Source: Acidobacteriales bacterium 59-55 (GTDB lineage Bacteria > Acidobacteriota > Terriglobia > Terriglobales > Acidobacteriaceae). From it: a stretch of 64,000 nt of DNA. The DNA is taken from contig MKSV01000007.1 in NCBI GenBank assembly GCA_001897435.1, positions 496,001 through 560,000 on the forward strand. Direction: 5' to 3'. This document shows, piece by piece, positions 1-10,846 of this stretch (the stretch's first letter is position 1; every line of letters begins with the position of its first letter). Made by a program: the position numbers and the translations under genes. Below the pieces are notes generated by a model, which did not search any database, had not been told where the DNA came from, and saw only the letters and a program-made list of their open reading frames with translations.

Positions 1-2108
1 GGATCGAAGGCTCCCAGCGTGACCAGGTTGGAGTTCGTCTCGGCGAAGTGGAAGGGCATAAAGACCTGCCCCGGCGCGACGATGCCGGTGATCCTCAGCT
101 CGATGTCTCTCACCGTGCTGCGCCGCGAGACAACGTTGACGCGATCATGCGGACGAAGTTCCAGCCTGGCGGCGTCGATGGGATTCATCTCCAGCCAGGC
201 GTTCGGCACCATGTTGTCGAGCATCTTCACCTCCGCCGTCTTGGTGCGGGTGTGCCAGTGCTCGACGGTGCGGCCGGTGTTGAAGATCAGGTCGTACTCC
301 TCATTCGGCTGCTCGACGAAGGGCAGGCAGGGAACGCTGTAGAGAGCAGCCTTGCCGGTAGCGGTAGGGAATACGCCGTCTGCGTACAGGCGGTCGCCGC
401 CCCATTGTGCGCCGCCTTCGTCTTCAAGCTGCTGCCATGTGAACTTGCTGTAGTCGCACATCCGGCCCTCGGAGACACGCTGCCACTCCCTGAAGGCATC
501 GTGCGTCGATTGCCAGCCGGGATATAGCTCCTCTCTCACGCCGAGCTTCTCTGCGAGCGCAAGGAAGATATCGAAGTCGGTGCGCGCCTCGCCCGGCGGT
601 ACAACCACGGGGTTGACCTTGCTGACGCGGCGCTCGGAGTTGGTGTAGGTTCCTTCCTTCTCGCCCCAGATGGCAGCCGGAAGAACAAGGTGCGCAAATT
701 CGCTGGTAGGCGTGGGATGAAAGCCATCCTGCACAACCAGAAAATCGACGCTCTCAAGCGCCTGCACCAGCACGGAATAGTTGGGAAACGAGACGACGGG
801 ATTGGTGGCGATGAACCACAGCGCCTTAACTTTGCCATTGACAGCGGCCTCGATAATATCCGGGTAGGCGAGACCGCGAGCCGTGGGAATGCGGTTGGCG
901 TCGATATTCCAGATGCGGGCAAGGTCTTCGCGGTCCTGCGGCTTCTCGAATTTGCGGTAGCCCGGCAGCGCCGAGGTGAAGCTGCTCTCGCGGCTGCCCA
1001 TGGCGTTGCACTGACCGGTAATGGAGAAAGGCGCGGCTCCGGCGCGTCCAATGTTGCCGGTGATGAGCGAAAGGTTGTTGATCGCGGTGACAGTAGCCGC
1101 GCCCTGCGTGGAGTGGTTGACGCCCATGGTCCAGCCGATGAAGGCAGCCTTCGCCTTGCCGTAGAGATACGCGGTATTAATGATGGTCTCTTCGCTGAGG
1201 CCGGTGACTTGGGCAACATGCTCGGGCGTGAACTCCGCAACAAAGGCAGCGAACTCTTCGAAGCCGGTGGTATGCCGCTCTATATAGTCTCGGTCGATGT
1301 GTCCGTCGCGAATAAGCAGATGCGCGATGCCGTTCAGCAGGGCGATATCTCCGCGCGGCTTGATGGGGAGATGAATGTCCGCCATCATGGCCGTCTTGGT
1401 CACGCGCGGATCGACGACGATCACGGTGGAGTCGGGGTTGTTGATGCGATTGCGTTCGAGACGCTGGCAGAGAATCGGATGGTTGTCGGCGATGTTCGCG
1501 CCGATCAGCAGAATGACATCGGCGGTCTCCATGTCGGCATACGAACCGGGCGGCCCGTCGCTGCCGAAGGTAAGTTTGTAGCCTGAAACGGCGGAGGCCA
1601 TGCACAGCGTCGTGTTGCCGTCGTAGTTGCGGCTGCCGAAGCCAAGCTGAACCAGCTTGCCCAGCGTGTAGAACTCTTCCGTGACAAGCTGGCCCGTGCT
1701 GATGACGCCGAGCGCATCGTTGCCGTATCTTCGCTGAACGACAGAGATCTTTTCAATCATCACGGTAAGGGCTTCGTCCCACGAGACCGGAACGAGCTTG
1801 CCATTCTTGCGCAGCAGCGGTAGCTTGGCGCGGCCGGGAGCATCGAGGATGTGGTGTTCGCTCAGGCCCTTGGGGCAGAGCTTGCCGCGATTGACAGGAT
1901 GATCGGGATTGCCGCGCACGGTGACGGCTTTGTTGTCCTTGACGCCCACCAGCATGCCGCAGCCGACCGAGCAGTAGCCGCACGTCGTCTTCACCCAGCG
2001 GTCGGCGACGCGCGTCGCGGCGATGTGGCCGAAGCGCGGATCGTGCTCGAAGGTGTACTCGGATTGGCGGGTGTCGATGCCGAGAGCCCGGCGGATGCGT
2101 GTCCACAT
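1..2108 (-). CDS. nasA: Assimilatory-type nitrate reductase, molybdopterin catalytic subunit (C-terminus beyond left edge)
   Basis: Reading the minus strand from the ATG at 2108 gives an open frame of 702 codons to the window edge with no stop, so the gene is 3'-partial. The N-terminus carries the [4Fe-4S] motif CGYCSVGC (Cys43, 46, 50) with the fourth Cys near 78, and the Nap/Nas-type molybdenum-ligand context TTLCMASAVSGYK (Cys about 169). No twin-arginine or other export signal is visible, so a cytoplasmic enzyme reducing nitrate to nitrite with Mo-bis-MGD is expected. The start lies 2 bp after the stop of the DmsBC-like gene, so they are co-transcribed. A formate dehydrogenase-like oxidoreductase is the alternative, but the neighbouring nitrite reductase favours nitrate. 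Symbol by family, not proven. Confidence 0.85.
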   Translation of the reverse strand, partial: MWTRIRRALGIDTRQSEYTFEHDPRFGHIAATRVADRWVKTTCGYCSVGCGMLVGVKDNKAVTVRGNPDHPVNRGKLCPKGLSEHHILDAPGRAKLPLLRKNGKLVPVSWDEALTVMIEKISVVQRRYGNDALGVISTGQLVTEEFYTLGKLVQLGFGSRNYDGNTTLCMASAVSGYKLTFGSDGPPGSYADMETADVILLIGANIADNHPILCQRLERNRINNPDSTVIVVDPRVTKTAMMADIHLPIKPRGDIALLNGIAHLLIRDGHIDRDYIERHTTGFEEFAAFVAEFTPEHVAQVTGLSEETIINTAYLYGKAKAAFIGWTMGVNHSTQGAATVTAINNLSLITGNIGRAGAAPFSITGQCNAMGSRESSFTSALPGYRKFEKPQDREDLARIWNIDANRIPTARGLAYPDIIEAAVNGKVKALWFIATNPVVSFPNYSVLVQALESVDFLVVQDGFHPTPTSEFAHLVLPAAIWGEKEGTYTNSERRVSKVNPVVVPPGEARTDFDIFLALAEKLGVREELYPGWQSTHDAFREWQRVSEGRMCDYSKFTWQQLEDEGGAQWGGDRLYADGVFPTATGKAALYSVPCLPFVEQPNEEYDLIFNTGRTVEHWHTRTKTAEVKMLDNMVPNAWLEMNPIDAARLELRPHDRVNVVSRRSTVRDIELRITGIVAPGQVFMPFHFAETNSNLVTLGAFD

Positions 2109-2110
2109 GA

Positions 2111-3706
2111 TCAGTGCGCTCCCCCGCGAGTGAAGGTAAGTGCCATGTTGAGCGGAACCACGGAGACGAAGAAGAGATAGCGGGCAAGGATGACCGCGGC
2201 AACTGCGGCGAGCGTGGCGAAGGTGAATGCTCCGCACAAAGGGAGCAACCCGGCGGCGGCGGGCAGGGCAAAGGAGGCAATGACGACAGGTCGAAGATCC
2301 TGTGTGTTCATCAGCGCCGCTGCGGCGCGGTCTTCAAAGAGGCTCGAACGATTAAGGCGAACGAGCCTGACGGTCTGGTTCGCAATCCACGCAACGGCGG
2401 CGAGACCCGGCAGCCAATGCGGATACGTTGCCGTCGCCTGTAGGTGAAACGGTTGCAGCAGCGCAAGTCGGCTGAACGCACCAGCGATCCGGTCAAGAGT
2501 CACAGGTAGCGTCGAGCCGATAAGCAGGCCGCTGAGAAGAAAGTCGATGGGAGTATGCGCCATATTCCAAGCCGGGCGGGCAGGCACGAGATAGATGTAC
2601 GCGCTGGCAATCGTACCGGCGATGCCAAGCGCAACGGCCATCCAGCCGATAGCCGCGAGTAGTGGAGGTGCAAGCACGATCAGTCTGAGATGTTGCAGCC
2701 ACACGGCAAATGTGAAGGCAGCGATGGCGCAGAAGAAGAGACCGAAGAGCAGAACCTCGCGGCTGAGCCACGAGCGCCGCCACATCTTCATCGCTCGCCA
2801 GGCGTAGGCCGGACGGCCCAGGTGGAAGACGGAGATATTGAGCGCGATGCTGGTGATAACGAGGAGCAGAGCCAGCAGCATCGGCTGCGCGCCGTCAAAG
2901 AGCAGTGCAAAGAGCAGCGAGCCGGTGACCGACTGGATCAGCGTCGTCATAAAGACGAGCGACAGGTGCGCATGCTCCGGCTGGATGCGCCCTGTGTCGA
3001 CGCGCTCAAGCTGCGTTGTGCTGTTGAGAGGAAGTGTAATGCGCGTCGTCGAGATAGTGTGGCCGGCGGCGGGCATGCCGGGAGATTCAGCGGCAGCGTA
3101 GTCCACGCGCCACGCGGCGGTGTTCACAATCTCGATCTCGATGGCAGCCTCGGGGCAGGAGTTGACGCACGCCGGCTCGCGCCCGTCGGTCAGGCGCCCG
3201 TGGCACATGTCGCACTTGCCGACGACACCGCGCTCGGCATTGAACTGCGGAACCGAGTAGGGGCAGTTCCACACACAGTACTGGCAGCCGATACAGGCAG
3301 TGGCGGAGTGGAGAACGATTCCGGTGACGGGGTCTTTGGTGTACGCATCGACCGGACAGCCCTTGACGCACTCGGCGTCGAGGCAGTGGTTGCAGCCCAT
3401 GGAGAGATAGTGTCGAAGCGTGTTGGGATAGGTGCCGCCTTCAATCTCGCCGACACGGCGCCAATGAATGTCGGCGGGGTTGCCGTTCTGCTCGTTGCAC
3501 GCAATCTCGCAGGAGCGGCAGCCGATGCACTTGGTCATGTCGAAGTGGAAGCGGTACTGCTCTCCGGCTTCGAGCGAGCGCGAGGGAATAAGCGATGTGA
3601 CGACTGTCGCCACCGGCGCGGAGGGTTGACCGAGGTCGGCAAAGGCCATGCGCACGATGGACTCGGCGGTGGCCGACTCTGCGAGTTCCTGCAGGGGTAG
3701 AGACAC
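2111..3706 (-). CDS. Fused DmsB-DmsC: four-cluster iron-sulfur protein joined to a membrane anchor
   Basis: 531 residues. Residues about 50-210 are a DmsB-type ferredoxin with four cysteine groups (KCIGCRSCEIAC, GCNHCLDAEC, CIGCQYCVWNC and KCDMC...CVNSC), each fit for a [4Fe-4S] cluster. The remainder, from about residue 250, is a DmsC-type anchor of about eight hydrophobic helices (PF04976-like), the part that oxidises quinol in DMSO reductase. DmsB and DmsC are normally separate; here they are one chain. Start is GTG at 3706, 6 nt after AAAGGAGGG. It directly precedes the nitrate reductase gene, so the inferred job is moving electrons from the quinol pool to that enzyme. No Tat signal is present, implying a cytoplasm-facing complex. 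Confidence 0.85.
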   Translation of the reverse strand: MSLPLQELAESATAESIVRMAFADLGQPSAPVATVVTSLIPSRSLEAGEQYRFHFDMTKCIGCRSCEIACNEQNGNPADIHWRRVGEIEGGTYPNTLRHYLSMGCNHCLDAECVKGCPVDAYTKDPVTGIVLHSATACIGCQYCVWNCPYSVPQFNAERGVVGKCDMCHGRLTDGREPACVNSCPEAAIEIEIVNTAAWRVDYAAAESPGMPAAGHTISTTRITLPLNSTTQLERVDTGRIQPEHAHLSLVFMTTLIQSVTGSLLFALLFDGAQPMLLALLLVITSIALNISVFHLGRPAYAWRAMKMWRRSWLSREVLLFGLFFCAIAAFTFAVWLQHLRLIVLAPPLLAAIGWMAVALGIAGTIASAYIYLVPARPAWNMAHTPIDFLLSGLLIGSTLPVTLDRIAGAFSRLALLQPFHLQATATYPHWLPGLAAVAWIANQTVRLVRLNRSSLFEDRAAAALMNTQDLRPVVIASFALPAAAGLLPLCGAFTFATLAAVAAVILARYLFFVSVVPLNMALTFTRGGAH

Positions 3707-4040: not shown

Positions 4041-5849
4041 CTAGTACACGTCGCGGTGATAGCGGTGGTCGTCCTTGAGCGTCTGGACGTATTCGGTTGC
4101 GGCTTCCGCGTCGAGGCGGCCCTGTTTTTCTACGATGGCGTGCAGCGTGGCATCGACATCCTTGGCCATGCGGGCGGCGTCGCCGCAGACATAGATGCTG
4201 GCGCCCTCCTCCAGCCATGACCAGAACAGCGGCGCCTGTTCGAGCATCCTGTCCTGCACGTAGACCTTGTGCTCCTGGTCGCGCGAGAAGGCGAGATCGA
4301 GGCGGCTGAGGTGCTTGTCCTTCACCATGGACTCAAGTTCGTCGCGGTAAAGAAAGTCAGTGGCCGCGCTGCGTTCGCCGAAGAAGAGCCAGTTCTTTCC
4401 CGTGGCGGAGAGTGCGCGGCGCTGGTGCAGAAAGGCGCGGAAGGGCGCGATGCCTGTGCCGGGACCGATCATGATGATGGGCGCGTCGTTCTGCCGGGGC
4501 AGGCGGAACTTCTTGTTCGGTTGAATATAGATAGGGCGCCGTTCGCCTGTATTGGTGCGGTCGGCGAGCAGGGTGGAGCATACGCCGCCGCGCTCGCGAT
4601 TGTGCGCGCGATAGCGGACGACGGCGACAGTCGTGTGAACCTCGCCCGCGTGCGCATAGGGGCTCGACGAGATGGAGTAGAGGCGCGGCGCGAGCTTCGG
4701 CAGCATGGCGACCAGGTCGGCGGGGTCGTGCAGCACGCCGGGATAGTCGTGCAGCAGATCGACCAGTCCGCGATCGTAGGTGTATTTTTCGAGATGCGCC
4801 TGCTGCTCGGGAACCAGCAGGCCGAACAGCGGCTTGCAGTTGCCGATGGTGGCGTAGGCCTCGATCATCCTGCGGGTGAGTCGTGTGATCTGTAGATGGT
4901 TGGTGAGAGCGTCGACGAGCGTGGTCGCGCCGGATTTAGGGAGCTGCACAGGCGCCTGGGGACTGAAGTTCAGCATGGTAATGATGTCATCGACAAGCTG
5001 GCGATCGTTCTCGGGAACAACGCCGCAGGCATCTCCGGCCTCGTACTTCAGGTTCGAGTCGGCGATGGAGAAGGCCATGTGCAGCGTCAGCTTACTCGAA
5101 ACCTCGCGGGTGAGCGGGTGCTTGTCCACAAGCGGCGCAAGAAATGGATTGTCGCGCGTGTAGGTAGATGTACTGCTTTCGGCCGCAATGGTTTTGACAG
5201 AAGCCGCAGTCACCTTAGCCGGTACCGCAGCGTTCTTCGGCGGCCGCGTGGAGACGATGGACTCGAGGCGCGAGTACAGGTTCTGCTTCCAGCCTGCGAA
5301 ACCTTCGTCGAGGTCGACATCGCAATCGATGCGCTCGCACAGACGCACGGCGCCGAGCGAGTCCAGCTTGTGATCGAGGTCGATGCCGAACTTGCAGAAG
5401 TGTTCGTAGTGCGAGTCGCCGAGAGCGAGCACGGCGTAGGAGAGATCCTGATAGCGAGGGAAGTGCTCGACGCAGAGCTTCTCGTAGAAGGGCTTCACCG
5501 CATCGGGCGCGTCGCCGTCGCCGTAAGTGCTGGCGATAAGGATGGCGTAGCGCTCCTCGGCGAGCGCGGCCGGCGTGTAGCCTTCGAGCGAGATGAGCGA
5601 GGCGATGTGGCCTTTGGACTTCAACTCTTTGGCGACCTTGCGAGCGAGGCCTTCCGAGGTTCCGGACTGCGAGGCATAGAGAACCGCAATCTTCAGCGAC
5701 AGCGCAGCCTCGGCGACGACCGCAGGCTGCGCCGAGGAGAAGATGCCCGCGAGGAAGCCGTTGAGCCACGCGCGCTGATCGTCATTGAAGGGCGCATTGT
5801 CGGGGATGTAGGGCACGAGCGTCGAAAGATTGGCGGTCTGTGTCGTCAT
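4041..5849 (-). CDS. cysJ: CysJ-type diflavin reductase (sulfite/nitrite reductase flavoprotein)
   Basis: 602 residues in the order of CysJ and P450 reductase: flavodoxin/FMN domain (about 50-195, ASQSGTSEG and STYGDGDAPD), FAD-binding domain (about 230-430, RLYSISSSP) and NADPH-binding domain (GPGTGIAPFRAF onward), ending in the family's usual aromatic C-terminus HRDVY. It would pass electrons from NADPH via FAD and FMN to a siroheme reductase. Its ATG overlaps the nirA stop by 4 bp, so translation is coupled, and the partner is most likely the nitrite reductase rather than sulfite reductase. Residues about 17-32 (FNDDQRAWLNGFLAG) resemble the N-terminus of that partner. Assignment to nitrite is inferred from context. 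Confidence 0.88.
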   Translation of the reverse strand: MTTQTANLSTLVPYIPDNAPFNDDQRAWLNGFLAGIFSSAQPAVVAEAALSLKIAVLYASQSGTSEGLARKVAKELKSKGHIASLISLEGYTPAALAEERYAILIASTYGDGDAPDAVKPFYEKLCVEHFPRYQDLSYAVLALGDSHYEHFCKFGIDLDHKLDSLGAVRLCERIDCDVDLDEGFAGWKQNLYSRLESIVSTRPPKNAAVPAKVTAASVKTIAAESSTSTYTRDNPFLAPLVDKHPLTREVSSKLTLHMAFSIADSNLKYEAGDACGVVPENDRQLVDDIITMLNFSPQAPVQLPKSGATTLVDALTNHLQITRLTRRMIEAYATIGNCKPLFGLLVPEQQAHLEKYTYDRGLVDLLHDYPGVLHDPADLVAMLPKLAPRLYSISSSPYAHAGEVHTTVAVVRYRAHNRERGGVCSTLLADRTNTGERRPIYIQPNKKFRLPRQNDAPIIMIGPGTGIAPFRAFLHQRRALSATGKNWLFFGERSAATDFLYRDELESMVKDKHLSRLDLAFSRDQEHKVYVQDRMLEQAPLFWSWLEEGASIYVCGDAARMAKDVDATLHAIVEKQGRLDAEAATEYVQTLKDDHRYHRDVY

Positions 5850-7636
5850 ACAAGCTCCTTGATTGCGCAGAAGGACTGAAGTTCGGCGATGGAGTGCCGC
5901 CGTGTGAAACCGAGGAACGTCTCCTCCTCATGGCGTCGCGTGGTGTAAGAGTCGAAGAGTTGCTCCATGACCGGCGGAAGATCGCTGAATTTAATTGCTG
6001 GAATCAGCTCGCGCGCGATGCTCTGGTCGCTATCCGAGCCGCCGCCGATAACGACCTGGTAGCCCTCCTCGCCGCCGACCTTGACGCCCATCAGCCCAAT
6101 GTCGCCGACGTAGTGCTGCGCGCAGGAGTGAGGGCAGCCGGTAACGTGCAGGTTGACGGGCTGCACGATGTTGAAGCGGTTATCGAGCAGCCGGGCCAGC
6201 GTCACCGCGTGCGTCTTGGTATCGGTCGCGGCATAACGGCAGCCCTTGTTTCCTGTGCACGCGACGGTTCCGCTCATCACGGTACCGGCCTCGAAGGAAA
6301 GCCCGGCAGCGAGGATCGCCGCCTTCGCCGCTTCTAGCTTCGCCGTGGGAATGTTGGGGAGGATCAGGTTCTGCCAGACGGTAAGCCGCACTTCGCCCGT
6401 GCCGCAACTCTCCGCGATCTCCGCAACAGCAAGCATCTGATCGACGGGCAGACGACCAACGGGCACCGAGACGCCAATGTAGTGGAGACCGGGCTGCGAC
6501 TGCGGATGCACGCCGATGTGCCCGGCGCGGTCGATGGGCCTGCGCGGCTCGCATGCCGACGCAGGCACGCGGATGAGCGGGAAGGCAAGCAGTTTTTCTG
6601 CTTTGGCGACAAACTTTTCGGTACCCCATCTGTCGACGAGATATTTGAGGCGCGCCTTCTTGCGGTCGGTGCGGTCGCCGCGTTCGGCGAAGACACGGAT
6701 CATGGCTGCCGCTACGGCGACGGTCTGGTCGGGGTGCAGAAGCACTCCGCAGTCGGTGGCAAACTGTTTGTGCCCGGTGATGCCGCACAGCAGCACGCGG
6801 AAGTAGACTCCGGCGGGAATGCCGTGGCCGTCGTTGACCTGCACAGCGACGAAGCCGATATCGTTGGTGTCGGCCAGCACGCTGATGGAGCCTCCGCCAT
6901 CGAATGCCACGTTGAACTTGCGCGGCAGGCCATACATATCGCGCGAGTTGAGTATGTAGCGGTTGAGCGCGTCGGCCAGCGGAGCCACGTCGTACAGCTC
7001 TTCCGGATCGATACCGGTGACAGGAGATGCGGTGATGTTGCGAATGTTGTCCGCGCCCGAACCGCGCGAAGTCATGCCGAGGTCCTGCACCTTTGACAAC
7101 ACGCGGACGATATCTTTGGGCTGAAACTCGCGTATCTGAACGTTGCTGCGCGTGGTCAGGTCGGCGCGTCCGCAGCCCCAGTCGGCAGCCATCTGTGCGA
7201 GGCCGCGAAGCTGGTGTGCGCTGAGGATGCCGCCGGGCACGCGCAGGCGAAGCATAAATGAGTCCTGCGCCGGAGCGACGTAGAAGAGGCCGTGAAATTT
7301 GAAGCGGAAGAGATCGTCAGGCGCAGGCGCCTTGTCTTCATTGGCGTGCGCGACGAGCTTCTCCCAGATGTCGAGCGCGTTCTCTTCCTGCTTCCAGCGC
7401 TCCTCCCTGCACAGCTCGGAGAGCGGAGTGCCGAACCACATCGGCTCCGCCTCCTCGGCAGCTTGATTGGCTGCACCGGAGGTTGCACTGTTGGCGATCT
7501 GACCGCCCGCAGTTTGGCCGGCGAAGGGCATGACGCCGCGCTGCGCCACGCCCGCGAAGAAGCCCTGCAGGTACTGTTGCTGAGCGATGGAAAACCCCGG
7601 CATGTCGATCAGGGCTGTGTTGTTCTGCGTTTCCAT
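5846..7636 (-). CDS. nirA: NirA-type siroheme nitrite reductase
   Basis: 596 residues from ATG 7636, which has AAGGAG 8 nt upstream; an in-frame ATG at 7780 exists but the extra 48 residues are not family-like. Two nitrite/sulfite reductase half-domains are followed by the siroheme/[4Fe-4S] ligands CTGNKGC (Cys460, 466) and TGCPHSCAQH (Cys501, 505). The second motif and the ending EETFLGFTRRH resemble assimilatory NirA proteins more than CysI. It reduces nitrite to ammonium with six electrons. First gene of a nirA-cysJ operon, 4-bp overlap. Cytoplasmic, no signal peptide. Sulfite reductase hemoprotein is the alternative, but a separate sir-type gene lies at 56.0-57.8 kb. Confidence 0.85.
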   Translation of the reverse strand: METQNNTALIDMPGFSIAQQQYLQGFFAGVAQRGVMPFAGQTAGGQIANSATSGAANQAAEEAEPMWFGTPLSELCREERWKQEENALDIWEKLVAHANEDKAPAPDDLFRFKFHGLFYVAPAQDSFMLRLRVPGGILSAHQLRGLAQMAADWGCGRADLTTRSNVQIREFQPKDIVRVLSKVQDLGMTSRGSGADNIRNITASPVTGIDPEELYDVAPLADALNRYILNSRDMYGLPRKFNVAFDGGGSISVLADTNDIGFVAVQVNDGHGIPAGVYFRVLLCGITGHKQFATDCGVLLHPDQTVAVAAAMIRVFAERGDRTDRKKARLKYLVDRWGTEKFVAKAEKLLAFPLIRVPASACEPRRPIDRAGHIGVHPQSQPGLHYIGVSVPVGRLPVDQMLAVAEIAESCGTGEVRLTVWQNLILPNIPTAKLEAAKAAILAAGLSFEAGTVMSGTVACTGNKGCRYAATDTKTHAVTLARLLDNRFNIVQPVNLHVTGCPHSCAQHYVGDIGLMGVKVGGEEGYQVVIGGGSDSDQSIARELIPAIKFSDLPPVMEQLFDSYTTRRHEEETFLGFTRRHSIAELQSFCAIKELV

Positions 7637-7829
7637 GCTGAATCTCCTTGTGCGACTTCCAGTGCGTGAGGACTGAAAGTTACAGGTGCGCAATCCGGAC
7701 AGGTGCGGCCAGAAACAGTGCCCAGATACGGTGCCAGATAAACATCGCGTTGCGACAAGCTCAAAGGGCGATGGATTCAAGGCTCGTCAGGGAGCATGAA
7801 ATTTGTAAGTGGAGTTTCAGCCCGGAACA

Positions 7830-7842
7830 CGGCATGGTGCCG
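7830..7842 (-). promoter_or_regulatory. Short hairpin in the nirA leader
   Basis: CGGCA-CCA-TGCCG, a perfect 5-bp stem downstream of the other leader hairpins. No T-run follows, so it is not a standard intrinsic terminator. Confidence 0.3.
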
Positions 7843-7976: not shown

Positions 7977-8233
7977 AAGCTTTCGTTATAGGGCTCGTCA
8001 TTTCTTGCTCTGTTGCGGGCCGCAATGCTACAAACCTGTAACAACTCCCATAAATTACAGGCACCTCGACGTGCCGCCCGGCCTGAACCGGATCCAACCA
8101 TCGTTGCTCTCCGCCTGAGCAAACTACGCCAATCTGTCATCCATCCGCGGCCTCTTCGAGCCGGATGCATCCCTGTTCCTCAAAGGTGCCGGTTTGCAAT
8201 TCGACGACGGCCGCATTCACAAGGGAGAAATAA

Positions 8234-9073
8234 ATGAGACTTCTTATTCTGATCGTTCTTTTTATGGCGGAAGCGCTCTGCGGCTCGATGAGTGTCGCAC
8301 AGAAGAACTTTTTTGCTCAGTGGCAGGACAGGGTGCGAAAGACATCTTCCCAACAGCCGGGCTGGGCAGTGCCGGTGGTCACGCCGTCGTCCGGCATCGT
8401 GCAACTGGCTCGCGTCGATGTGCTGCATCAATGGGCTTCGACCGGCTCTTCGACGTGGAACTACGGCAACAGCAAGGGCTTCAACTTCATCCCGTACTAC
8501 AGGACGGAGATTGACGTAAACCTTCCGCCGTATGTTCAACACAACAGCCCGAAGGCGGCAGACGGCGCAGGCGACTTTTCGATGGTGCTGAAGTATCGTC
8601 CGTTCGCCGGAAACGCGGAGGGGGGAAATTACTCGACGGCCTTCCAGATCGCGGCGACCGGAGCGACGGGAAGCTATAAGAACGGAACCGCGAGAGCCAC
8701 CATCAATCCGACGCTGATCGTAGGCAAGGGGTTCGGCAGGTTCGATATTCAGTCGAGCCTGGGAGGCACCTTGCCGGTCGGCTCGGTTCACGCAATTGGA
8801 AGAACGATTGTATGGAATACCGTCGCGCAGTATCAGGTGGGCAAGATCTTCTGGCCCGAGATCGAGGTGAACTCGAACTTCTACCACCTGGGGCCGAACG
8901 ATGGAAAGAATCAGACCTTCATCACGCCGGGCCTGATGGTGAGCAGGATCAAGCTGCGCAGAGACCCGACGGACAGGCTGGGGCTGGTATTTGGCGGAGG
9001 CATGCAGATCGCTACCTCGACCTTCCATGCCTATAACCACGGCCTCGTATTGACTGGCCGGCTTACGTTTTAG
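8234..9073 (+). CDS. Putative outer-membrane beta-barrel protein
   Basis: 279 residues. ATG 8234 follows AAGGGAG. A hydrophobic N-terminus of about 20 residues ending near SVAQ reads as a signal peptide. The rest alternates polar and hydrophobic residues with many aromatic and glycine positions and ends in a phenylalanine (GRLTF), the usual C-terminal signature of barrels inserted by the BAM complex. Similar acidobacterial proteins are loosely called transporters. It is transcribed divergently from nirA and just ahead of the HemD-GAF-ANTAR regulator, so a role in nitrate or nitrite passage across the outer membrane is possible, but that is context only; no substrate can be read from the sequence. 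Confidence 0.6.
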   Translation: MRLLILIVLFMAEALCGSMSVAQKNFFAQWQDRVRKTSSQQPGWAVPVVTPSSGIVQLARVDVLHQWASTGSSTWNYGNSKGFNFIPYYRTEIDVNLPPYVQHNSPKAADGAGDFSMVLKYRPFAGNAEGGNYSTAFQIAATGATGSYKNGTARATINPTLIVGKGFGRFDIQSSLGGTLPVGSVHAIGRTIVWNTVAQYQVGKIFWPEIEVNSNFYHLGPNDGKNQTFITPGLMVSRIKLRRDPTDRLGLVFGGGMQIATSTFHAYNHGLVLTGRLTF

Positions 9074-9193: not shown

Positions 9194-10846
9194 ATGACTC
9201 ACGCGAGCTTTGACGGACTGCGGGTTCTATCGCTTGAATCGCGACGCGCAAAAGAGGTCGCGAAGCTGATCCGCACCTATGGCGGCGAGCCATTTGTCGT
9301 ACCCGCCATGCGCGAGGCGTCTCTCGAATCCAACGAGCAGGCGCTGGCCTTTGCCGAGGGCCTGCTGCACGGGAAGTTCGATCTGGTCATCTTTCTGACC
9401 GGAGTCGGCATTCGCTCGCTGCTGGAGATCGTTGAGACGAAATACAAGCGCGAGGAATTTCTCGAAGCGCTGCGCTCGGTCAGCATTGGAGCGCGCGGAC
9501 CCAAGCCGGTTGCCGCTCTCAAGGATTTGAAGGTGCCGGTGACGGTGACGGCGCCCGAGCCCAATACCTGGCGCGAGATGATGCACGCGCTCGAGGCAGA
9601 GTTTGGCGAGCGCCTGGGCGGGATGCGGGTAGCGGTGCAAGAGTACGGCGCGTCGAACCCCGAATTTCTTTCGGAACTGACGGTAAAGTGCGGCGAGGTC
9701 ACCAAGGTTCCCGTCTACCAGTGGGCGCTGCCCGAGGATATAGGGCCGCTGCGTGAGTGCGTTCTGGGCGTGGCCAACGCCAGTGTCGACGTAGTGTTGT
9801 TCATGACGGCCGTGCAGGTCATTCATCTCTTCCAGGTAGCCGAAGAGATGAGCCTGCGCGAAGAACTGGCGGCCGGCCTGCGCTCGATGGTGGTGGTCTC
9901 AATTGGGCCGACGACGTCGGAAGAACTGGCTCACTACGGCATCACTCCGGACTTCGAGCCGTCGCATCCGAAGATGGGCTTTCTGGTCAACGAGGCAGCA
10001 CAGTACTCCGGCAAGATTCTGGAGCGGAAACGAAGCGGCAACACGAACGCGACACCGCCTACTCCCGCGAAGGCGACTGAGCCTCCATCGAAAGTACGCC
10101 GCGTCGCTCCGTCGACGCCGAACATGGCTGGATTCCGCGATGGCCTGACCTCGATCGACTTTCTGCATGAGATCAGCAGCCGGCTGGCGGCGGCGGACTC
10201 CTTCCATGTGGTACTCGGCAGCATCGTCGACTTCGTGACGACGGTGATCCCCTGCGACTCGTGCTTTATCTATGTCATGGAGAATGACAAGCTCGTTCTT
10301 CGCGCCTCGAAGAATCCCCACGCCGATCTGGTGGACAACCTCGGGATGCATCTGGGGCAGGGAATTACCGGCTGGGTGGCCGAACACCGCGAGCCGGTGT
10401 CGATCGTCTCCGGAGCATCGAACGACCCGCGATTCGTCATGTTCCGCAACCTGCCCGAGGACCACTTCGAGGCGATCCTGTGCACGCCCATCCTCTGCGC
10501 GAGCAAGGTGGTCGGCGTCATCAATCTACAGCACCAGATGAGCTATCAACATACTGCCAACGAGATTCGTTTGCTCTCGATGCTTGGATTTCTGGTAGGC
10601 GCGGAGATCGAGCGCACACGTCTGGAGACGGAAAATCTGCAACTGGCCGGACGGCTGGAGACGCGCAAGGCGGTCGATCGGGCCAAGGGAATTCTTCAGC
10701 GCGATCTGGCGATGAGCGAGGACGAGGCCTATCGCACCATGCAGCGCGAGAGCCGCCAGCGACGCATCTCCATGCGCGAGATCGCCGACGCCATTGTGCT
10801 GGGCGACGATCTGAAGAAGTCGCAGACGGCCGCCGAACAACGATAA
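9194..10846 (+). CDS. HemD-GAF-ANTAR fusion regulator
   Basis: 550 residues; ATG 9194 follows GGGGGAG. Residues about 8-275 are a uroporphyrinogen-III synthase (HemD/HEM4) fold, starting GLRVLSLESRRAKEVAKLI. A variable linker (about 280-320) leads to a GAF domain (about 325-465; FLHEISSRLA, then GQGITGWVAEHREPV), and residues about 477-537 are an ANTAR RNA-binding domain with the family core RKAVDRAKGILQRDLAMSEDEAYRTM. ANTAR proteins bind tandem hairpins in mRNA leaders and prevent termination. HemD domains on regulators are known in actinobacterial NnaR, tied to nitrite assimilation, but with a DNA-binding output. The inferred role is antitermination of the neighbouring nir/nas genes in response to a tetrapyrrole or GAF ligand. 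Whether the HemD part is catalytic is unknown. Confidence 0.85.
   Translation: MTHASFDGLRVLSLESRRAKEVAKLIRTYGGEPFVVPAMREASLESNEQALAFAEGLLHGKFDLVIFLTGVGIRSLLEIVETKYKREEFLEALRSVSIGARGPKPVAALKDLKVPVTVTAPEPNTWREMMHALEAEFGERLGGMRVAVQEYGASNPEFLSELTVKCGEVTKVPVYQWALPEDIGPLRECVLGVANASVDVVLFMTAVQVIHLFQVAEEMSLREELAAGLRSMVVVSIGPTTSEELAHYGITPDFEPSHPKMGFLVNEAAQYSGKILERKRSGNTNATPPTPAKATEPPSKVRRVAPSTPNMAGFRDGLTSIDFLHEISSRLAAADSFHVVLGSIVDFVTTVIPCDSCFIYVMENDKLVLRASKNPHADLVDNLGMHLGQGITGWVAEHREPVSIVSGASNDPRFVMFRNLPEDHFEAILCTPILCASKVVGVINLQHQMSYQHTANEIRLLSMLGFLVGAEIERTRLETENLQLAGRLETRKAVDRAKGILQRDLAMSEDEAYRTMQRESRQRRISMREIADAIVLGDDLKKSQTAAEQR

Follow-up and report, generated by a model that had tools for sequence, protein, structure and literature searches.

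The HGA locus

The stretch of DNA analysed here, which we call the window, comprises 64,000 nucleotides (nt) of contig MKSV01000007.1 (positions 496,001 to 560,000) from Acidobacteriales bacterium 59-55. Within it lies the gene for a 550-residue HemD-GAF-ANTAR protein, for which we use the name HGA, divergent from the nitrate and nitrite genes nirA-cysJ-dmsBC-nasA. The leaders of both operons hold paired hairpins, and we consider it likely that HGA acts through this dual hairpin as an antiterminator of the nirA operon and also of its own operon. The features on which the argument turns are as follows (coordinates are those of the window).

9194..10846, plus strand: HGA, HemD-GAF-ANTAR regulator of 550 residues, ATG start (open reading frame and Pfam)
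9254..9988, plus strand: HemD (HEM4) domain of HGA, residues 21-265 (Pfam E 1.1e-32, 113.5 bits)
10205..10609, plus strand: GAF domain of HGA, residues 338-472 (PF01590, E 9.2e-12)
10640..10798, plus strand: ANTAR RNA-binding domain of HGA, residues 483-535 (PF03861, E 6.2e-17, 61.6 bits, cut-off 27.3)
5846..7636, minus strand: nirA, siroheme nitrite/sulfite reductase family, NirA family protein (NF007126, 834.5 bits, cut-off 523)
7826..7841, minus strand: nirA leader hairpin P1, GGCAC-CATGCC-GTGTT, C1/G4 hexaloop (leader scan)
7782..7795, minus strand: nirA leader hairpin P2, GCTC-CCTGAC-GAGC, C1/G4 hexaloop (leader scan)
7733..7773, minus strand: terminator-like hairpin CATCGC..GCGATG followed by TTTATCTGGC, before nirA (folds and alignment)
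8060..8075, plus strand: P1' of the divergent leader, GGCAC-CTCGAC-GTGCC, towards the 8234 open reading frame and HGA
8104..8122, plus strand: P2' of the divergent leader, TTGCTC-TCCGCCT-GAGCAA, 7-nt loop, towards the 8234 open reading frame and HGA

A preliminary description of this DNA had proposed a single 550-residue frame with HemD, GAF, and ANTAR domains, and that architecture is borne out by the open reading frame and by Pfam matches that all exceed the curated cut-offs. The ANTAR domain aligns with EutV, NasR, AmiR, and Rv1626, and HGA is the only ANTAR protein in the whole genome. An AlphaFold model (mean predicted local distance difference test score 82.2, predicted template modelling score 0.53) contains a single long helix, residues 455-505, that runs into the ANTAR domain. 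The Foldseek and VIA lists for HGA are dominated by uroporphyrinogen III synthase (UROS) and GAF chains, and the absence of ANTAR from those lists is no evidence. Residues C354, D355, and C357 of the GAF domain form a C-D-x-C motif that is invariant in an alignment of 59 HGA sequences, two of which lack HemD. We dropped a comparison in which GAF appeared more conserved than HemD because those two rows bar invariant columns in HemD, which has many invariant columns in another family alignment.

The fusion recurs. A class sample of 399 genomes yielded at least 46 further copies, all in the window's own family, with 56-90% identity over at least 442 of the 550 residues and 45 of them essentially full length. 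A 513-residue form of about 49% identity occurs in other Terriglobia families. HGA is therefore not a chance join. We found no description of an HGA-like ANTAR/HemD protein in the open-access full-text literature, which is not proof of absence.

A dual hairpin in the nirA leader

Alignment of nirA leaders from HGA loci revealed conserved blocks. When hexaloop hairpins were required to have G4 in the loop and at least four stem pairs, the scan recovered P2, as GCTC-CNNGWN-GAGC, in 34 of 35 leaders (L079 is the exception; L-numbers denote fetched loci and G-numbers genomes, with G000 the window's own), against a mean of 0.06 in Markov shuffles. When nothing was asked of the loop, 35 GCTC-N6-GAGC hairpins were recovered in 34/35 leaders. 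Their loops are far from uniform in constraint: G4 is present in 35/35, C1 in 34/35, and A5 in 32/35, and positions 2 and 3 vary. The partner hairpin P1, AC-CNNGNN-GU, lies upstream of P2. In the 19 sites recovered with G4 required, one of which (L038) has only three contiguous pairs, the loop-to-loop distance between P1 and P2 ranges over 39-53 nt apart from a single site with 69 nt, and some of the remaining leaders appear by eye to have P1 loops of 7 or 8 nt. Both hairpins of this ANTAR-like element are present in the window. The dual hairpin of the nirA leader is conserved and is new here; no Rfam family reached its gathering score within the window.

The divergent leader carries its own pair. 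In relatives P1' reads GACAC-CTTGAT-GTGTC, P2' follows the pattern GCTC-NNCGNNN-GAGC, and the two lie 42-48 nt apart. This second hairpin pair, placed in the leader of the HGA operon, suggests that HGA regulates its own expression. In two loci, L052:10991 and L054:10751 (both minus strand), an extra single C1/G4 hairpin, GCTC-CACGTC-GAGC, stands between HGA and a gene of the kind that occupies 8234-9073 in the window, about 70 nt before HGA.

Since GCTC-N6-GAGC and CAC-N6-GTG are palindromic, and a divergent gene arrangement is typical of shared operators, the paired hairpins could be inverted-repeat DNA operators of a transcription factor, with HGA acting elsewhere. We regard that explanation as very unlikely. 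Conservation of the hairpin loops favours one strand and one side, with C1, G4, and mostly A5 kept and the mirror positions not. The two strands of the intergenic region have separate copies, each in the sense of its own gene. P1 and P2 are 39-53 nt apart in all but one of the 19 sites with P1, and a further hairpin follows P2, as in a leader RNA.

Genes that carry the element

Apart from the HGA operon, the element is nearly confined to nitrogen-oxide genes. Two strict patterns were run over 12 whole genomes, 10 with HGA and two without it, and gave 20 matches: 10 nirA leaders (one in each HGA genome), seven divergent leaders, two nirC leaders, and one other, G310:C2:22937, which is unexplained. 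Reversed-pattern controls gave 0 and 1 matches, and the strict patterns had no match in the two HGA-lacking genomes. Because the ten nirA leaders were training rows, these runs test specificity, not sensitivity. The whole genome G000 contains exactly two strict sites, the nirA leader and the divergent leader before the HGA operon; with nothing matched outside the locus, no siroheme gene elsewhere in G000 carries the strict patterns. In 18 further stretches, three of them (L208, L209, and L210) around nirA/HGA loci, the strict motif occurs in L210 alone.

A covariance model built from 18 leaders ranks the G000 nirA leader, itself a training row, at E 2.1e-12, and the next best match has E 0.18. 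That match (G000:C9:19708) and another at E 0.39 (C7:1341500) lie within open frames of 1021 and 396 codons, respectively, and were set aside. An extra model match in G218, before a formate/nitrite transporter (FNT), provided a lead to nirC. From 34 FNT genes listed in 55 genomes, 30 were fetched. A dual motif lies upstream of all four NirC-type genes (G310, G218, G239, and G284; 211-230 bits) under a slightly looser pattern, with one 7-nt P1 loop and one case of hairpins only 30 nt apart, and before 0/26 of the other FNT genes. P2 also precedes the stand-alone dmsBC-nasA operon in five of seven loci (L077, L079/L290 on one contig, L282, L288, and L293). When nir, divergent, and nirC leaders were aligned together, 6- and 7-nt loops were mixed, and no model was built from the result.

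Distribution and history of HGA

Two overlapping collections were used to place HGA among its neighbours, and they share members and are therefore not independent. In the class sample, a locus was counted as nitrogen-linked if a NirA ortholog (at least 55% identity) lay within the fetched stretch. For the set of named genomes, the best 80 of 251 relatives were fetched and 12 partial, split, or broken cases were left out; in the 68 fused loci that remained, NirA or NasA (at least 55%) or DmsBC (at least 45%) alongside made the link. By these definitions 34/46 fused loci of the class sample and 43/68 of the named genomes are nitrogen-linked, so the refuting condition named in the preliminary description, a fusion found chiefly apart from nitrogen genes, did not come true. 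Among the named hosts are Granulicella rosea, G. mallensis, Terriglobus roseus DSM 18391, T. albidus, Bryocella elongata, and Acidipila rosea. A NirA ortholog is present in all 34 nir-linked HGA loci and absent from 80/80 genomes without a nir-linked HGA (best match at most 37% identity). These 80 comprise a group of 25 (14 without a fused HGA, six with a non-nir copy only, and five with a split or 513-residue form from other families) and 55 same-family genomes without a fused HGA.

The 513-residue form has nasA nearby in L144, L149, L300, and L302-L304; in L300, L302, L303, and L304 it lies downstream of nasA, with dmsBC as well in L302-L304. The RNA code at these loci may differ from that at loci of the fused HGA. 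A tree of 57 proteins (36 nitrogen-linked, 16 unlinked, and five neither) requires seven changes of the nitrogen-link label, five of them forced by well-supported branches, compared with 13.9 for shuffled labels. The 513-residue branch is deepest under midpoint rooting and is nitrogen-linked in its four labelled rows. From the label changes and this nitrogen-linked branch, the association of HGA with nitrogen genes is probably old, with more than one origin of the unlinked copies.

Several genomes, such as G159, G230, G355, G111, G026, and G239, have one nir-linked and one unlinked copy of HGA. Unlinked fused paralogs are found at L053, L056-L061, L064-L067, and L072 and at L254, L257, L259, L261, and L266, and the strict dual motif was not found in the stretches fetched for them. 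HemD and GAF-ANTAR occur as adjacent separate genes in L081-L085. In L085 this split pair has a DAHP synthase downstream and SSF and MFS transporters upstream; homologs of the synthase lie near the pair, and homologs of the transporters occur, in L081-L083. The HGA frame appears interrupted at L076 (G284), where GAF-ANTAR falls in two overlapping pieces, and at L306 (Acidipila sp. EB88), where it has a late start. At L268 (CAJCHN010000107.1), an HGA with 63% identity lies on a contig labelled Rhodanobacteraceae; it is likely mis-binned, with horizontal transfer as the alternative.

Antitermination as the proposed mechanism

HGA would be a one-component antiterminator whose ANTAR domain, probably dimerised through the long helix after GAF, would bind P1 and P2 in the nascent nirA-cysJ-dmsBC-nasA leader and the second dual hairpin in that of the HGA operon. 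Binding would keep P2 folded and thereby prevent the following terminator-like hairpin, so that the genes are read. We infer RNA binding by HGA and a positive direction of effect on this basis. The conserved leader element, the strict sites found only at this locus, and the co-occurrence with NirA all argue that HGA very probably works by antitermination on the nirA operon and on its own.

What stands from the preliminary description, which had the ANTAR end relieving termination in the nir leader, is a leader with a conserved dual hairpin followed by a predicted terminator-like hairpin. Of 14 aligned leaders, 13 have a GGC able to pair with the GCC of the P2 3' arm (GAGCC). The hairpin at 7733..7773 was also found by a consensus promoter/terminator scan of the window, to which we give little weight because its 14 terminator-like sites compare with 10.7 in shuffles.

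Excerpts of one report describe hexaloops with A1 and G4 in characterised ANTAR targets, required AC/GU closing pairs in P1 of EutV, and a linker of 5-12 nt in eut (PMC3369931). Portions of a structural report give G4 as the only base-specific contact between EutV and RNA and show that lengthening the linker by 20 nt abolishes antitermination (PMC8934654). The probable HGA targets share with those of EutV/EutW the dual hairpin, the G4 of the hexaloop, the AC/GU closing pairs of P1, and a P2 beside a terminator-like stem. They differ in the 7-nt P2' loop of the divergent leader, and HGA differs in being without a REC domain.

A number of results weigh against antitermination through this element. 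The putative HGA targets have C1 in place of the A1 of characterised ANTAR targets, the canonical A1/G4 tandem (stems of at least four pairs) occurs in 0/35 nirA leaders, and the linker is about 28-30 nt rather than the 5-12 nt of eut. Met172, reported as essential in EutV, maps in our own alignment to Arg521 of HGA, which is invariant in 59 sequences; for this reason we would guess that the recognition surface of HGA may differ from that of EutV. P1 with G4 required is found in only 19/35 sites; without any demand on the loop, a P1 hexaloop hairpin of four or more pairs appears in 20/34 leaders, of which 17 have G4 and 15 have C1, and none was recognised by eye in L068-L075. Covariation in P1, which shows some compensatory changes, exceeds that of shuffled alignments (96.7% of cells paired vs 89.5%; score 0.376, reached in 0/500 shuffles, vs 0.227 shuffled and no more than 0.141 when slid), but the 19 rows were preselected as hairpin-forming, two of the five pairs are invariant, and measures of double change are weaker (two pairs, with 92/500 shuffles as high; five cells, with 25/500). 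P1' and P2' occur together in only 8/32 divergent leaders, and P1' in 19/32. Of the 35 leaders, 25 were folded; P2 forms by itself in 10 of these, 12 show downstream pairing of its 3' arm (partly in L077), and the U tracts are weak.

Specificity and synteny contribute further points of this kind. In 17 genomes with a nir-linked HGA outside the covariance model, the nirA leader is the best match of its genome in 11 (E 2e-4 to 0.09) and not in the remaining six; since E values of 0.06-0.09 overlap the best matches in 14 HGA-lacking genomes (E 0.06-6), the weaker of the 11 count by their place and not by their E value. One unrelated match, G126:C116:82104, reaches E 0.009. P2 was not found before dmsBC in the stretch inspected at L285 and L080, nor was the strict element before dmsBC at the 513-residue loci L303 and L304 (at L304 only about 130 nt were available). 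Finally, 12/46 and 25/68 fused copies of HGA lie away from nitrogen genes, 11 of those 25 at loci of 4.0-12.5 kb shortened by a contig end.

The weak U tracts and mixed folds, together with the distance of about 60-175 nt from P2 to the start codon, would also fit an HGA that binds the leader and either represses or affects translation or RNA stability. We judge this quite unlikely: the P2 3' arm can pair with the downstream GGC, the interval between them holds a hairpin and a run rich in U, much as in the eut and nas attenuators, and P2 lies too far from the ribosome site to cover it.

The HemD domain as a probable sensor

The HemD domain matches both the UROS fold and the family profile, and a second HemD elsewhere in the genome scores much better (209 vs 116 bits). 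Against curated HemD equivalogs the HGA domain scores 130.6 bits (cut-off 233) and 129.4 bits (cut-off 273), and the other HemD of the genome is also below its cut-offs, so the shortfall tells us little. Among 24 genomes with an HGA-type HemD (104-138 bits), 21 hold a higher-scoring one (at least 158 bits); the three without, G348, G324, and G168, are 71-84% complete. The HemD of HGA is probably a second, NnaR-like copy that serves as a sensor rather than as a supplier of uroporphyrinogen III. Arguments about catalysis from single residues were dropped.

An enzymatic role for this domain has its own attractions. It shares the motifs TGVGxR, RGxK, QxYG, and Y175 with the uroporphyrinogen III synthase of T. 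thermophilus (E 2e-9) as well as the fold, and other Acidobacteriota have proteins of about 700 residues in which a HemD of this type is joined to URO-D/HemE (L147:1609-3717 and L148:2186-4285, both minus strand). HGA might then provide a local supply of siroheme for NirA, with GAF alone, which retains its invariant C-D-x-C, controlling ANTAR in response to nitrate, nitrite, nitric oxide, or another signal. This seems unlikely to us given the higher-scoring HemD in all but the three incomplete genomes and given that NnaR, the closest characterised architecture, is described in parts of two reports as lacking HemD activity (PMC11162112, PMC6277429). The genomes with URO-D fusions, G192 and G053, have a separate higher-scoring HemD.

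The probable sensor role of HemD can be set beside NnaR. The HGA domain matches NF005568 (PRK07239), which we take to be an NnaR-like model, at 129 bits, below the cut-off of 273. According to sections of the same two reports, NnaR joins an inactive HemD to a DNA-binding domain and controls nitrite assimilation; they call the role of its HemD unclear and mention a proposal that it senses hydroxymethylbilane or uroporphyrinogen III (PMC11162112, PMC6277429); a passage of the first describes the HemD-OmpR architecture as restricted to Actinomycetes (PMC11162112). HGA has in common with NnaR a HemD-like N-terminus that is a second HemD copy, and NnaR, in these partial accounts, controls nitrate/nitrite assimilation genes. 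In contrast to NnaR, HGA has an RNA-binding ANTAR output with a GAF domain between, and its host belongs to the Acidobacteriota. The only Pfam matches of HGA are HEM4, GAF, and ANTAR, with no OmpR/PhoB winged-helix DNA-binding domain and no NIT domain among them.

Two nitrate regulators offer additional comparisons. NasT is a REC-ANTAR protein. Like HGA, NasT/NasS of Proteobacteria represents ANTAR-type control of nitrate assimilation, but NasT is held by the separate sensor NasS in the limited descriptions drawn on here, whereas the presumed sensors of HGA are in one chain. In part of a further report, the enterobacterial NasR is described as carrying a NIT nitrate sensor together with ANTAR (PMC7496416). 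NasR, so far as that partial description goes, and HGA are both one-component ANTAR proteins with probable leader hairpins before nitrate/nitrite assimilation genes; the presumed sensors of HGA are instead HemD and GAF, and its target loops are C1/G4 rather than A1/G4.

By analogy with NnaR, it is conceivable, at somewhat less than even odds, that the HemD ligand is a linear or cyclic tetrapyrrole precursor, and GAF may sense the same or another signal. Of the preliminary description as a whole, the nitrogen-gene neighbourhood and the leader element with its terminator-like hairpin hold up, and the HemD ligand is only plausible. More tentative still is the full picture in which a former tetrapyrrole enzyme, HemD, would read hydroxymethylbilane, uroporphyrinogen III, or siroheme and ANTAR would license nirA and its own operon through a C1/G4, long-spacer code that arose independently of NnaR.

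Neighbouring genes

The remaining features of the locus are listed below.

4041..5849, minus strand: cysJ-like NADPH flavoprotein (TIGR01931, 603.6 bits, cut-off 668)
2111..3706, minus strand: dmsB-dmsC fusion, adjoining nasA (family profile matches)
1..2237, minus strand: nasA, molybdopterin oxidoreductase, running off the left window edge, start uncertain (synteny)
8234..9073, plus strand: 279-residue open reading frame between nirA and HGA, in the same direction as HGA

Family matches confirm nirA, cysJ, and dmsBC as neighbours, and nasA follows them. The names nasA, used in the preliminary description, and narK are assumed from context; the gene called narK, for an MFS transporter, is next after nasA, directly beyond the window edge. 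The cysJ-like flavoprotein is a possible electron donor of NirA. The 279-residue open reading frame has no Pfam or NCBIfam match, and a homolog adjoins HGA in 14/46 fused loci. It is probably co-transcribed with HGA. By eye, its sequence reads as outer-membrane-like, which makes the protein a candidate nitrate/nitrite porin. Downstream of HGA and convergent with it lie the molybdate uptake genes modABC. Additionally, an imperfect palindrome, TTGTTACAGGTTTGTAGCA, lies at 8025-8044 between the two divergent leaders and takes the form TGTTAC-N7-GTAACA in close relatives; it is a possible transcription-factor site or promoter.

Outlook

HGA and its leaders are a variant of known ANTAR and HemD-regulator themes, and the C1/G4 loops and long linker depart from known ANTAR targets. 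If the proposed recognition is true, the ANTAR target code widens to C1 instead of A1 and to a long spacer, and searches for ANTAR regulons limited to A1/G4 loops and a short linker would miss such sites. HGA would also be a separate fusion of an NnaR-like HemD, here to an RNA-level switch, and its near-unique target on the same kind of gene would make it a clean system for asking what HemD-like sensors read. A presumed sensor that resembles an enzyme of the haem pathway, coupled in a soil bacterium to an RNA-binding switch with probable targets just before the nitrite reductase genes and its own operon, suggests a new tie of nitrate use to a signal of the cell.

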